Assembly: GCA_008016945.1 (NCBI GenBank)
Contig: SSGN01000146.1
Coordinates: forward strand, 1-20,955
Length of the DNA: 20,955 bases
Source: Flavobacteriales bacterium
GTDB lineage: Bacteria; Bacteroidota; Bacteroidia; Flavobacteriales; PHOS-HE28
Reading direction: 5' to 3'
The position numbers were made by a program, and so were the translations under genes. Every line of letters begins with the position of its first letter. The first letter of the stretch is position 1. This document shows positions 3,192 through 16,612 of the stretch, piece by piece. The notes beneath the pieces are model-generated. The model saw only the letters and a program-made list of their open reading frames with translations, did no database searches and was not told the origin of the DNA.

Positions 3192-3255
3192 CAACGGTGC
3201 CCGCACCCCCAAGGGGCCATGGTATGCGGATCACGGGGATCCGTAACGCGTTCAC
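3192..3255 (-). promoter_or_regulatory. operator and promoter A (aldo/keto reductase-cupin-CMD-DUF2255 unit)
   Basis: On the minus strand the distal half-site GTGAACGCGTTAC (3255-3243) is followed by an 8-bp spacer and the proximal half-site GTGATCCGCATAC (3234-3222), giving a 21-bp offset. A 22-bp gap leads to the -7 element CACCGTTG (3199-3192), one mismatch from CAnnTTTG. The start codon at 3171 is 20 nt further on. The same arrangement occurs at four other promoters in this window. Binding by the AraC-family regulator encoded at 16758-17657 is inferred from the 21-bp phasing and from its location. Confidence 0.8.
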
Positions 3256-3309
3256 TGGTGGGGCCAGGGCGGCGAACCGGATACCGATGTAGGGAATGAT
3301 GAGGGTCAG

Positions 3310-3523
3310 GGCGTGCCCCGGCTCGTCCCGTCGCTTCGCAGAGCCTTCGCTCGGGAGCAGCCGGGTCGCGCCTGCCTGACGGTAGGCAGGTGCTCCGCTT
3401 TAGTCCCGGCCATGCGGCCTGCGGCTGCTCGCACTGCGGGGGCTTCCTCCGGTCGCCTCCTCGTTGCGACATCCGCACAGGCCTTCCCGGCCGGGAGCTG
3501 CCGCTGCGCCCGCTCACGCGCGG
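3310..3523 (-). repeat. intergenic repeat, copy 1 (inverted relative to the copy at 13867-14063)
   Basis: This is a noncoding GC-rich element of about 214 bp. Its minus strand aligns with the plus strand at 13867-14063. The 27-bp end at 3497-3523 is identical to 13867-13893, the 60-bp block at 3310-3369 is nearly identical to 14004-14063, and the 14-mer at 3390-3403 recurs at 13990-14003. The middle is diverged. This copy carries an extra palindrome of about 20 bp at 3371-3390 that the other lacks. Together with the palindrome at 3528-3572 it fills most of the 550-bp gene-free stretch between promoter A and the toxin gene. I see no plausible protein; it could be a REP-like element or a structured RNA. 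Confidence 0.75.
3371..3390. repeat. short palindromic insertion within repeat copy 1
   Basis: The sequence CCTGCCT, a 6-nt loop and AGGCAGG form a 7-bp perfect hairpin. It sits exactly where the flanking repeat blocks are contiguous in the second copy (14003/14004), so it looks like a later insertion into the larger repeat. Similar CTGCCTAC...GTAGGCAG-type palindromes are, from memory, frequent in some Bacteroidota genomes; I cannot confirm that here. Confidence 0.6.
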
Positions 3524-3527
3524 CATG

Positions 3528-3572
3528 GATCAACTATTGTCAATGAAGCGGCTTCACTGACAATAGTTGATC
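3528..3572. repeat. 45-bp near-perfect palindrome (possible bidirectional terminator or element end)
   Basis: Two 22-bp arms (3528-3549 and 3551-3572) are complementary with a single mismatch around a one-base centre. The arms begin and end GATCAACTATTGTC / GACAATAGTTGATC and are much more AT-rich than their surroundings. Reading frames entering from either side terminate inside it. There is no T tract as in a canonical intrinsic terminator. It lies between the toxin gene's 3' end and promoter A and directly abuts repeat copy 1, so transcription termination or the end of a mobile or repeat element are both possible. Confidence 0.7.
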
Positions 3573-3645
3573 ACTTCCCCTGTTCGAGCAAATGCACTTG
3601 ACGCCCGTAACATCCGGCACGACCCGAAGGGTCGGTAAGAGGACT

Positions 3646-3670
3646 CCGCGTGATCCGGCGCAGCGGCAGC
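3646..3670 (+). repeat. short partial match to the end of the intergenic repeat
   Basis: These 25 bases (CCGCGTGATCCGGCGCAGCG and following) resemble the 27-bp conserved end of the repeats at 13867-13893 and 3497-3523, including the shared GGCGCAGCGGCAGC-like core. No further similarity to the 60-bp block follows. It may be a degenerate third copy or chance in GC-rich DNA. The rest of 3573-3806 shows no gene or clear signal apart from a small GACCC-GAA-GGGTC hairpin at 3621-3633. Confidence 0.4.
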
Positions 3671-14763: not shown

Positions 14764-14771
14764 GGCAGGAG

Positions 14772-15710
14772 TTACCAAGGGAAGTTGTCGGGATCGTTCT
14801 GGGCGTTGGTGCGCCGGTCGCTGTTGATGCCGTGGATGACGGACATGTCCACCGGTGAGAGGTCCCGGTCGAAGATGGCGAGGTTCTCCTTCATGTGGGC
14901 GATGTTGCGCGAGCGGGTAACGGCGATGAGGCCGCGCTGCATGTGCCACTTCAGGATGATCTGCGCCACACTGCGGCCGTACTTCTTCGCCAGCGTGGCC
15001 AGCACGGGGTCGTCCATGTCCTGGCCGTTGCCCAGCGGCGACCACGACTGCGCGGCGATGTCGCGGTAGAGTGTGCGGCCCACGTTCTGCATGTTGGAGA
15101 AGCTGGGGTGCACCTCGATCTGGTTGAGCACCGGCTTCACGCGGGCGTACTTCAACAGGTCGTCGATGTGGTGCATGTTGAAGTTGCTGAGGCCGATGGA
15201 GCGGATGAGGCCCTTGGCCACGTAGTCCTCCAGGATGGTCCAGGTGTCCTGGATATGGTCCTTCACGGGCCAGTGGATCAGGCACAGATCGATGTATTCG
15301 CCGCCCAGCTTCTCCAGGCTTTCGTCCAGCGACCGTTGCACCGTGCCATCGCGCATGACTTGCGGGGATACCTTGGTGGTGAGGTACACATCCTTGCGCG
15401 CGATGCCGCTGTCCTTCACTCCCTGGTACACGCCCGCCTCGTTGCCGTAGCCCTGCGCGGTATCGATCAGGCGGTAGCCCACTTCGATGGCCTCGCGCAC
15501 ATATTGCTCGGGCTTGTCGGTGAGGGTCCAGGTGCCGAAGCCGAGCTGGGGGATGGTGGTGCCATTGTTCAGCTGGATGAGGGGGATGCGGTCGGTGGTG
15601 GTCATGTTTCCGGTGTTGAATGGGAGAAGTGGGGAAGCGGAGGAGATCCTGTGCAGGGCCAGCAGGCCGGCCATGCCGAGCGATGACTTGATGAAGGTGC
15701 TGCGTTCCAT
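14772..15710 (-). CDS. aldo/keto reductase with hydrophobic N-terminal extension
   Basis: A 312-residue AKR with a complete tetrad: Asp83 and Tyr88 in YRLIDTAQGYGNE, Lys113 in LTTKV and His146 in CLIHWP. Further signatures are GLSNFNMHHIDDLL, NQIEVHPSF and the C-terminal TRSRNIAHMKENL coenzyme loop. Residues 1-35 (MERSTFIKSSLGMAGLLALH and on) look like a degraded Tat signal: the S-x-FIKSS-hydrophobic pattern remains but the twin arginine is missing. The enzyme may therefore be exported poorly or not at all, or translation may start at ATG 15605 (MTTTDRIPLIQLNNG), the usual AKR start. It follows the SDR gene by 54 bp and precedes the RibD-C gene by 8 bp. It is only moderately similar to the aldo/keto reductase at 4441-5331, so this is not a recent duplication. 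Confidence 0.9.
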   Translation of the reverse strand: MERSTFIKSSLGMAGLLALHRISSASPLLPFNTGNMTTTDRIPLIQLNNGTTIPQLGFGTWTLTDKPEQYVREAIEVGYRLIDTAQGYGNEAGVYQGVKDSGIARKDVYLTTKVSPQVMRDGTVQRSLDESLEKLGGEYIDLCLIHWPVKDHIQDTWTILEDYVAKGLIRSIGLSNFNMHHIDDLLKYARVKPVLNQIEVHPSFSNMQNVGRTLYRDIAAQSWSPLGNGQDMDDPVLATLAKKYGRSVAQIILKWHMQRGLIAVTRSRNIAHMKENLAIFDRDLSPVDMSVIHGINSDRRTNAQNDPDNFPW

Positions 15711-15764
15711 GGTGATGGTCGGGGTGAAAGGATGGTGGTGATGAAAGGACCGGTGTGTTCTTGT

Positions 15765-16526
15765 TCAACGGACGGTGTAGCCGCCATCGGGCGCCACCAC
15801 CTGGCCCACCATGAAGCCCGCACCGTCGCTGCACAACCAGAGCACGGCGCTGGACACTTCCTCGGCCTTGCCCATGCGGCCCAAGGGGATACCCCCGATG
15901 ATAGCCGCCATGTGCTCGGGCCGGTCGGCCACGGCGTTGGATACCATGGGCGTGTCGGTGGTTCCGGGGCAGATGCAGTTGATGCGGATGCCGCGATGCG
16001 CATACTCCAACGCGCTGGCCTTGGTGAGGCCCACCACGCCATGCTTGGCCGCGGTGTACGCACCCAGGTTCGCCGTGCCCACCAGGCCGCTCTGCGAGGA
16101 GCAGTTCACGATGGCGCCGCTCCCCTGCTCCCGCATGTGCCGCAGCTCGTGCTTCATGCAGTTCCAGATGCCCTTCAGGTTCACCGCGATGGCGCGATCG
16201 AACTCTTCGCCGCTGGCATCGGCGGTCTCCGCGACGGTGACGTGCGTGCCGGCGTTGTTGTAGGCGTAGTCCAGCCGCCCGAAGGCCGCCACCGTCCGCT
16301 CCACCATGCGGGCCACGTCGGCCTCGCTGGTGACGTCGCAGCGGATGGCGATCGCCTGGTGACCGGCGTCGGTCAGGGCCTTCACCGCCCGCTGCACCTT
16401 TTCTTCGGTATGGTCGGCCAGGGCCACTTTGGCGCCGGCTTCCGCGAACGCTTTCGCCGCCGCGAACCCGATGCCCGATCCGGCGCCCGTGATCAGCGCC
16501 ACCTTGCCTTGGAATTCGTTGTACAT
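15765..16526 (-). CDS. short-chain dehydrogenase/reductase (classical SDR)
   Basis: A 253-residue classical SDR. The cofactor motif TGAGSGIG is at residues 13-20, NNAG at 90-93, the catalytic Ser at about 144 in IVNCSSQSG, and the YxxxK pair Tyr157/Lys161 in GAYTAAKHG. After Lys come the NCICPGTTDTPM loop and a C-terminal GQVVAPDGGYTV typical of glucose-1-dehydrogenase/FabG-like members. Asp38 at the end of beta-2 (VALADHT) suggests NAD(H) preference. The substrate is probably an alcohol/carbonyl pair but unknown. It is the first gene of the unit under operator D and is divergent from the AraC-family gene. The ATG at 16526 gives MYNEFQGKVALITG and lies 22 nt from the -7 element, matching promoter A. 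Confidence 0.94.
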   Translation of the reverse strand: MYNEFQGKVALITGAGSGIGFAAAKAFAEAGAKVALADHTEEKVQRAVKALTDAGHQAIAIRCDVTSEADVARMVERTVAAFGRLDYAYNNAGTHVTVAETADASGEEFDRAIAVNLKGIWNCMKHELRHMREQGSGAIVNCSSQSGLVGTANLGAYTAAKHGVVGLTKASALEYAHRGIRINCICPGTTDTPMVSNAVADRPEHMAAIIGGIPLGRMGKAEEVSSAVLWLCSDGAGFMVGQVVAPDGGYTVR

Positions 16527-16548
16527 GGTCTTCGTCCTTTTGATGAGG

Positions 16549-16612
16549 CAAAGGTGACCGCATGGAAAGCCGCGACCGGTACGCGGATCACGGGAAGATG
16601 TAACCCGTTCAC
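16549..16612 (-). promoter_or_regulatory. operator and promoter D (SDR unit, divergent from the AraC-family gene)
   Basis: The distal half-site GTGAACGGGTTAC (16612-16600), an 8-bp spacer and the proximal half-site GTGATCCGCGTAC (16591-16579) are offset by 21 bp. A 22-bp gap leads to CACCTTTG (16556-16549), then C. The start codon at 16526 is 22 nt downstream. The proximal half-site falls about where the -33 box would be, the class II activator position. A run of eight G at 16613-16620 abuts the distal edge. From this shared intergenic region the regulator could also influence its own gene on the plus strand. Confidence 0.85.

Follow-up and report, generated by a model that had tools for sequence, protein, structure and literature searches.

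In a 20,955-nt stretch of contig SSGN01000146.1 (GenBank assembly GCA_008016945.1) from a Flavobacteriales bacterium, here called the window, a 34-bp site made up of two tandem half-sites precedes several operons for putative detoxification proteins and is found next to a gene encoding an AraC-family protein. With high confidence, this site can be regarded as the operator of the adjacent regulator, which would activate genes for the detoxification of carbonyls and electrophiles. The sites, their spacing, the association with a regulator clade and the target families are the computed parts of this reading. As a real site, a fixed promoter distance and recurrence beside the same regulator family come together, it probably represents a widespread gene-control circuit. 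For a regulator clade that is widespread in Bacteroidota and apparently uncharacterised, this provides testable predictions of the operator, the promoter geometry and the targets, and the operator can be used for predicting regulon members in genomes for which there are no experiments.

Operator Sites and Promoter Geometry in the Window

Four strong sites are present on the minus strand. Operator 1 (GTGAACGGGTTAC-N8-GTGATCCGCGTAC, 16579..16612) lies between the SDR gene and the araC-type gene and reads toward the former, operator 2 (6665..6698) is located upstream of the zinc alcohol dehydrogenase gene at a distance of 171 bp from the chosen ATG, operator 3 (5425..5458) upstream of the gene for the DkgA-like aldo/keto reductase AKR2, and operator 4 (3222..3255) upstream of the unit encoding AKR3, a cupin and a carboxymuconolactone decarboxylase (CMD)-family protein. 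A fifth, degenerate site (operator 5, 13749..13782, likewise on the minus strand) precedes the operon for an outer membrane efflux protein (OEP) and the RND, HlyD and MFS proteins. These positions had been proposed in the first-pass annotation and were confirmed, as was the 21-bp offset between the starts of the two 13-bp direct-repeat half-sites, which holds in five of five sites. Regarding the letters proposed there for the half-sites, the second one is exact in two sites and differs at two positions in the alcohol dehydrogenase site and at one in the AKR-cupin site, and the first one differs at one position in the alcohol dehydrogenase site. Within the four strong sites, both half-sites agree at 8–9 of 13 positions.

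Scanning the window with a pattern allowing up to three mismatches resulted in four matches (1, 0, 0, and 0 mismatches) versus none in 100 dinucleotide shuffles. In G001 (3.6 Mb), the nearest genome compared, the like pattern at up to three mismatches gave exactly four matches, all of them the same four promoters, and none when read backwards; the motif is therefore not frequent. Chance origin of the four strong sites is ruled out by the shuffled windows and the G001 scan, and so is, by the latter, a motif common across the genome. With a very loose pattern, 137 matches were obtained in G001, mostly noise. Scanning the genome contigs for the regulator yielded two loci, and a plasmid search with 1.2 kb around the gap between SDR and regulator genes found none.

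In E. coli, AraC binds araBAD I1-I2 through a direct repeat whose half-sites are offset by 21 bp, the proximal half-site adjoining the -35 element. For Flavobacterium psychrophilum, the -7 box of sigma-A promoters is given as TAnnTTTG at -12 to -5 in the available excerpt of PMC9723704. On the minus strand of the window, such boxes are found 22 nt downstream of operator 1 (CACCTTTG, 16549..16556), operator 2 (CAGCTTTG, 6635..6642) and operator 3 (CAATTTTG, 5395..5402), and a -7-like box with four of six letters (CACCGTTG, 3192..3199) follows operator 4 at the same distance; in G001 and in G024, another genome of the genus, the latter box reads CACCTTTG. Over 43 sites (36 from other genera, five from the window and two from G027 of the same genus), a box with at least five of six letters follows the operator at a distance of exactly 22 nt in 36 cases, seven of the 43 being perfect, and at 21 nt in four (the second site of L140, the first site of L152, L159 and the window's RND site). 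In 1000 shuffles, not more than four sites shared any single -7 offset, and the box had played no part in building the scoring matrix. When the TAnnTTTG box is taken as -12 to -5, the operator would extend from about -68 to -35; its fixed distance of 22 nt consequently places it where the -33 element would be, an arrangement known from AraC class II activation. This further supports the AraC-type phasing claimed in the first-pass annotation, which did not mention the -7 box.

On the other edge of the operator, the regulator's own -7 box was located (n = 29, the window and G024 included) at 41 nt in 14 cases and 42 nt in two, at 29–31 nt in eight, and at 48, 53, and 63 nt in one each, with a shuffle maximum of four. 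Most of these distances are about a helical turn apart, 48 nt and a distance of 33 nt from a held-out locus (see below) fitting less well, and the independent 29–31-nt events are fewer than the rows since five of the eight come from the genus g21 and two are sister sequences. As the operator thus appears to be in helical phase with the regulator's divergent promoter in other genomes, autoregulation is likely there; this phasing was not seen in the window.

Binding, activation, the direction of control and the signal are what we infer beyond these computed parts. An inferred regulator dimer would place one two-helix-turn-helix domain on each 13-bp half-site, and with half-sites 21 bp apart both monomers would therefore occupy the same face of the helix. 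The near half-site would replace the -33 element of the promoter, and RNA polymerase would be recruited by the bound regulator in the manner of class II activation by AraC. It is rather improbable that the regulator instead represses via the operator and that an aldehyde or other ligand relieves this repression. Bound protein could also block the polymerase at the -33 region, which the operator end adjoins, and AraC itself represses in one state; a repressor, however, would have no need of the 22-nt spacing, which 36 of 43 sites retain, or of the phasing to its own promoter, and precedent in the AraC family is mostly activation.

The GC-rich version of the operator was detected in three of 395 class genomes (G001, G024, and G027), all belonging to one genus. 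A looser composite pattern has matches in 23 of 45 genus genomes and none when reversed, with four places in G001, five in G024, two in G027 and 27 in the other 42 genomes, the latter being judged non-operators by eye. In G027, operator 4 has kept 34 of 34 letters, whereas the surrounding alignment (427 columns) is 81.5% identical. Operator 1 is present in G024, and in G027 it differs at five of 34 letters, three of them in the spacer. A regulator gene is not visible at this SDR locus of G027 because the site starts at base 193 of the contig, and no regulator homologue was found elsewhere in the genome at E 1e-3. Adjoining operator 1 on the regulator side, the window has a run of eight G (16613–16620), corresponding to six G in G024.

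A Regulator Clade Sharing the Operator Across Bacteroidota

Upstream of homologous AraC regulators across Bacteroidota, a diverged, AT-rich operator (about GTAAAATTGGTA-N9-GTAATCTGTATA) is present. Homologues (E ≤ 1e-40) occur in 62 of 296 phylum genomes, and 40 further stretches around homologue matches, mostly taken from the best downward, were added to the survey. To limit circularity, the matrix applied to each of the 79 regulators had been trained on other genera only, and a locus was considered positive at a score >12.5 in combination with at least four of six -7 letters, resulting in 30 positives among the 77 full-length regulators. In a maximum-likelihood tree of these 77 sequences (the fragments L170 and L171, <250 aa, were left out), a single clade (support 100/99) harbors 30 operator-positive regulators out of 31, versus none of the 46 outside it. 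Moreover, 29 of the 30 clade sites point away from the regulator, that of L161 pointing toward it, and the median distance to the regulator start is 69 bp. In an earlier scan, the loci of 23 distant AraC proteins scored not more than 4.8.

Five held-out loci, found with another query and outside the training set, all have a site beside the regulator, scoring 36.7, 17.8, 40.8, 17.3, and 29.9 versus shuffle maxima of 13.1, 8.6, 12.6, 14.8, and 7.6, respectively. At these loci, the -7 box lies at 22 nt in five of seven sites, at 21 nt in one and is absent from one, and the regulator's own box was found at 41 nt in three of five loci and at 33 nt in one. In 44 whole genomes, the AT-rich pattern matched 30 sites in 20 genomes and none when reversed; a control pattern with a spacing one base too long gave no match, and two when reversed. 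The 24 genomes without match comprise 14 selected for not having a homologue at E 1e-40, seven selected for homologues that had shown no site in the earlier scan, and three (G385, G069, and G326) in which clade members are present and the sites are more divergent. A motif private to the species of the window is ruled out by the diverged sites across genera and the held-out loci. Neither of the two outcomes named as refuting in the first-pass annotation was obtained: the motif is not frequent in G001, and it is present beside 30 of 31 clade members and at five of five held-out loci. The observation was right and understated, as the operator is a property of the regulator clade rather than of one 13-kb block. 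It is legible from sequence because it is conserved across genera and kept at a fixed distance to the -7 box.

It is highly improbable that the sites belong to a regulator other than the adjacent AraC-family protein. Such an assignment could account for L148, where a site is present and the frames drawn over 19 kb include no regulator, and for L038 (G033), a clade member without detectable operator, in which a search for a 21-bp repeat with at least nine of 13 matches found none. However, two clade members (L147 and L162) are encoded at other places in G176, the genome to which L148 belongs, and the clade-wise distribution of the sites as well as their orientation and short distance to the regulator gene argue for the neighboring protein. 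The idea of a self-contained regulon fits the window, but in other genomes sites may occur with no regulator nearby, as on G176:C86.

Upstream of two regulators outside the clade (L040 and L164), a low-scoring TGTGTTA-like stretch is followed by a -7 box at 21 nt. This hints at different operators being used by sister clades with the geometry unchanged.

The regulator of the window (16758..17657, plus strand, 299 aa), divergent from the SDR gene and matching HTH_18 and HTH_AraC, belongs to the AraC/XylS family with a two-helix-turn-helix C-terminal domain and a cupin-like N-terminal regulatory and dimerization domain. In its AlphaFold2 model (mean pLDDT 81.5), residues 6–179 match the RhaR regulatory domain and residues 184–299 AraC-type DNA-binding domains; the alignment used for the fold comprised 25 of 120 listed proteins. 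All 30 operator-bearing regulators have F229 and G230, whereas L (93%) and S (89%) prevail outside; these adjacent residues lie in what is taken as the first recognition helix. C172 and C141 are conserved in 97 and 90% of the clade, respectively, the usual residue outside the clade being different, and a sensor role of these cysteines is a guess.

Target Genes of the Predicted Regulon

In line with the predicted function, 50 of 110 genes in operator-led operons of relatives match one of eight window detoxification proteins in blastp comparisons (first six genes per operon), versus 14 matches among the 364 remaining genes at these loci. Pfam tallies covered the first five genes per operon, with 38 of 39 first genes (the L161 regulator gene omitted) and 70 of 72 further genes (L140:17705-17983 and L141:3894-4220 omitted). 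Among the first genes are eight for aldo/keto reductases, five for zinc dehydrogenases, three for SDR proteins and one for an iron-containing alcohol dehydrogenase, and among the further ones 14 aldo/keto reductase genes and nine matching Cupin_2. With 22 of the 108 genes scanned, aldo/keto reductases form the largest Pfam family. At the g21 loci, which are probably from Chryseobacterium, a zinc dehydrogenase gene is alone under the operator as drawn. In G517, a genome from another class, three operators lie within 10.4 kb, the regulator is 66% identical to that of the window, and counterparts of SDR (79% identity), AKR3 (72%), AKR1 (68%), and RibD (60%) are found in one operon; regulator and targets thus seem to have been inherited or transferred together.

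The targets in the window, comprising aldo/keto reductases, SDR and zinc dehydrogenases, the cupin, the CMD-family protein and probably RND-MFS efflux, make it plausible that the regulon responds to reactive carbonyls or to electrophiles of a related kind. An inducer of a different kind, e.g., an aromatic compound or a quinone rather than a reactive carbonyl, has a smaller yet appreciable likelihood, considering that operator-led operons include genes for esterases, CMD, cupin, DUF4440, flavodoxin and ABM-domain proteins. On the other hand, the prevalence of aldo/keto reductases, together with two window enzymes being DkgA-like, favors carbonyls as signal.

Several points weigh against the operator being that of an activator of carbonyl and electrophile detoxification genes. 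The targets vary, with 17 of the 38 first genes encoding aldo/keto reductases or zinc-dependent, SDR or iron-containing dehydrogenases, the others encoding esterases, DUF4440, flavodoxin and metallo-beta-lactamase-fold proteins, and some being without assignment. At three of the 43 sites (L153, L160, and AKR3 of the window) the -7 box is at neither spacing, it fails at the regulator-side site of L233, and the regulator's own box was not found in the window, G024 or the held-out L230. L038 lacks a detectable site despite its position within the clade. As for the scoring, the cut-off of 12.5 was chosen after a gap between 9.8 and 13.1 had been seen, 1% of 330 shuffles scored above 11.4 with one reaching 27.2, and three of the 79 loci had at least one shuffle out of 20 that scored above 12.5 as well. 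The training sites originally came from an iterated search of the same loci. Two of the held-out sites (17.8 and 17.3) are only modestly above their shuffle maxima (8.6 and 14.8), and the genus of the held-out locus L231 was represented in the training set.

Taking all parts together, one ancient Bacteroidota operator might drive two divergent promoters, with class II spacing of 22 nt on the detoxification side and phased distances of about 31, 41–42, 53, or 63 nt on the regulator side, forming an autoregulated electrophile switch in which C172 and C141 could act as sensor and which in the lineage of the window has become a compact, co-travelling module. This combined picture can only be put forward tentatively and is somewhat doubtful in its entirety.

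The Degenerate Site Upstream of the RND Operon

The claim of the first-pass annotation that five promoters share the operator stands for the four strong sites, and the RND operon likely belongs to the regulon as well. Its site, weak on its own, shows half-site agreement at seven of 13 positions and a matrix score of 8.8, versus 46.1–52.7 for the four strong sites, which were part of the training set, and it was not recovered in the window pattern scan at three mismatches. Rather less probably, the RND-MFS operon is outside the regulon and its site at 13749 resembles the operator by chance. Its low score, reached also by three of 40 whole-window shuffles and surpassed by a match within the HlyD gene (at 8540, score 10.9), points in this direction, and the site was not found in G001, whose three contigs compared do not span window positions 12466–14096. 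On the other hand, when the 268-bp region preceding the RND operon is Markov-shuffled, five of 2000 shuffles score as high as the site, a -7 box (GACCTTTG, 13720..13727, minus strand) lies 21 nt downstream, and the site fits the loose composite pattern, for which the 27 matches in 42 other genus genomes correspond to roughly 0.004 per 21 kb. The site is identical in G024, which says little as this locus is 98.5% identical overall.

Comparison With Known Systems

YqhC of E. coli is a member of the AraC family, and the regulator clade of the window may be viewed as resembling the YqhC-yqhD-dkgA system. According to the accessible part of PMC8262776, YqhC activates the genes for an aldehyde reductase and a DkgA-type aldo/keto reductase. 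By analogy, the window has an AraC-family regulator gene beside those for DkgA-type aldo/keto reductases and an alcohol dehydrogenase; however, the dehydrogenase is zinc-dependent and the aldo/keto reductases score below the DkgA cut-off. Moreover, the predicted operator here serves several operons and precedes a Bacteroidota -7 box.

With AraC at araBAD, the window system shares the tandem half-sites 21 bp apart and a predicted regulatory domain resembling those of RhaR and AraC, but half-site sequence, targets and the Bacteroidota promoter are different. The tandem half-sites at about 21 bp and a near half predicted at -35/-33 from the -7-box spacing (36 of 43 sites) would be similar to AraC class II promoters. 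Compared to the Bacteroidota sigma-A promoter, whose consensus is taken from the available excerpt of PMC9723704, the box at 22 nt matches at least five of six letters at the same 36 sites, whereas it is perfect in only seven of 43 and the operator occupies the place of the upstream element. In JGI records, the name 'activator of pobA', as for PobR-type AraC regulators, is given to some of the proteins homologous to the L145 regulator, the name being that of the source itself. In the literature searched by title and start of abstract, with most subscription papers outside the scope, the operator was not described.

Gene Map and Further Observations

The window has a GC content of 65%. G001 contains 84% of its sampled 31-mers, with three contigs aligning at 98.7–99.5% identity, and G024 has a 19.9-kb stretch 98.5% identical to it. 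Drawn from gene order only, the transcription units on the minus strand are SDR-AKR1-RibD, OEP-RND-HlyD-MFS, Zn-ADH (the zinc-dependent alcohol dehydrogenase), AKR2, and AKR3-cupin-CMD. The first unit encodes the SDR oxidoreductase (15765..16526; PF13561, 4.5e-69), AKR1 (14772..15710) and a RibD C-terminal domain protein (14077..14763). In the second, the genes for OEP (12244..13653, start picked by eye), an AcrB-family RND pump (9082..12231) and an HlyD-family membrane fusion protein (7977..9233, longest frame) are followed by that for an MFS transporter (6719..7969), the final gene as drawn. Zn-ADH (5477..6493) has a start picked by eye, and for AKR2 (4441..5331) as well as AKR1 the best NCBIfam model is DkgA, below cut-off. 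The last unit comprises AKR3 (1883..3171, start picked by eye), the cupin (1361..1864), assigned to the NCBIfam (R)-mandelonitrile lyase model with 147.4 bits at a cut-off of 140, and the double CMD-family protein (523..1353). A frameshift of one base interrupts the AKR3 gene of the window, which is a single frame in G001 and G024; an assembly error may be the cause.

At 3807–4136, the AKR2 and AKR3 units are separated by a gene for a ParE-type toxin, part of a toxin-antitoxin system. The block is flanked by imperfect inverted copies (about 72% alike) of an intergenic repeat of about 200 bp at 3309–3523 and 13867–14064, and G001 contigs end close to both copies. In G027 (L155, 3009–11797), large frames without match to window proteins lie between the SDR and AKR3 modules, in the position of the window's RND, ADH and AKR2 units. 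At 17917–20133, a phospholipase D (PLD)-type frame continues into a sodium/hydrogen exchanger domain and stops within it; in G001, the PLD frame has 520 aa, and a further frame of 542 aa comes after it.

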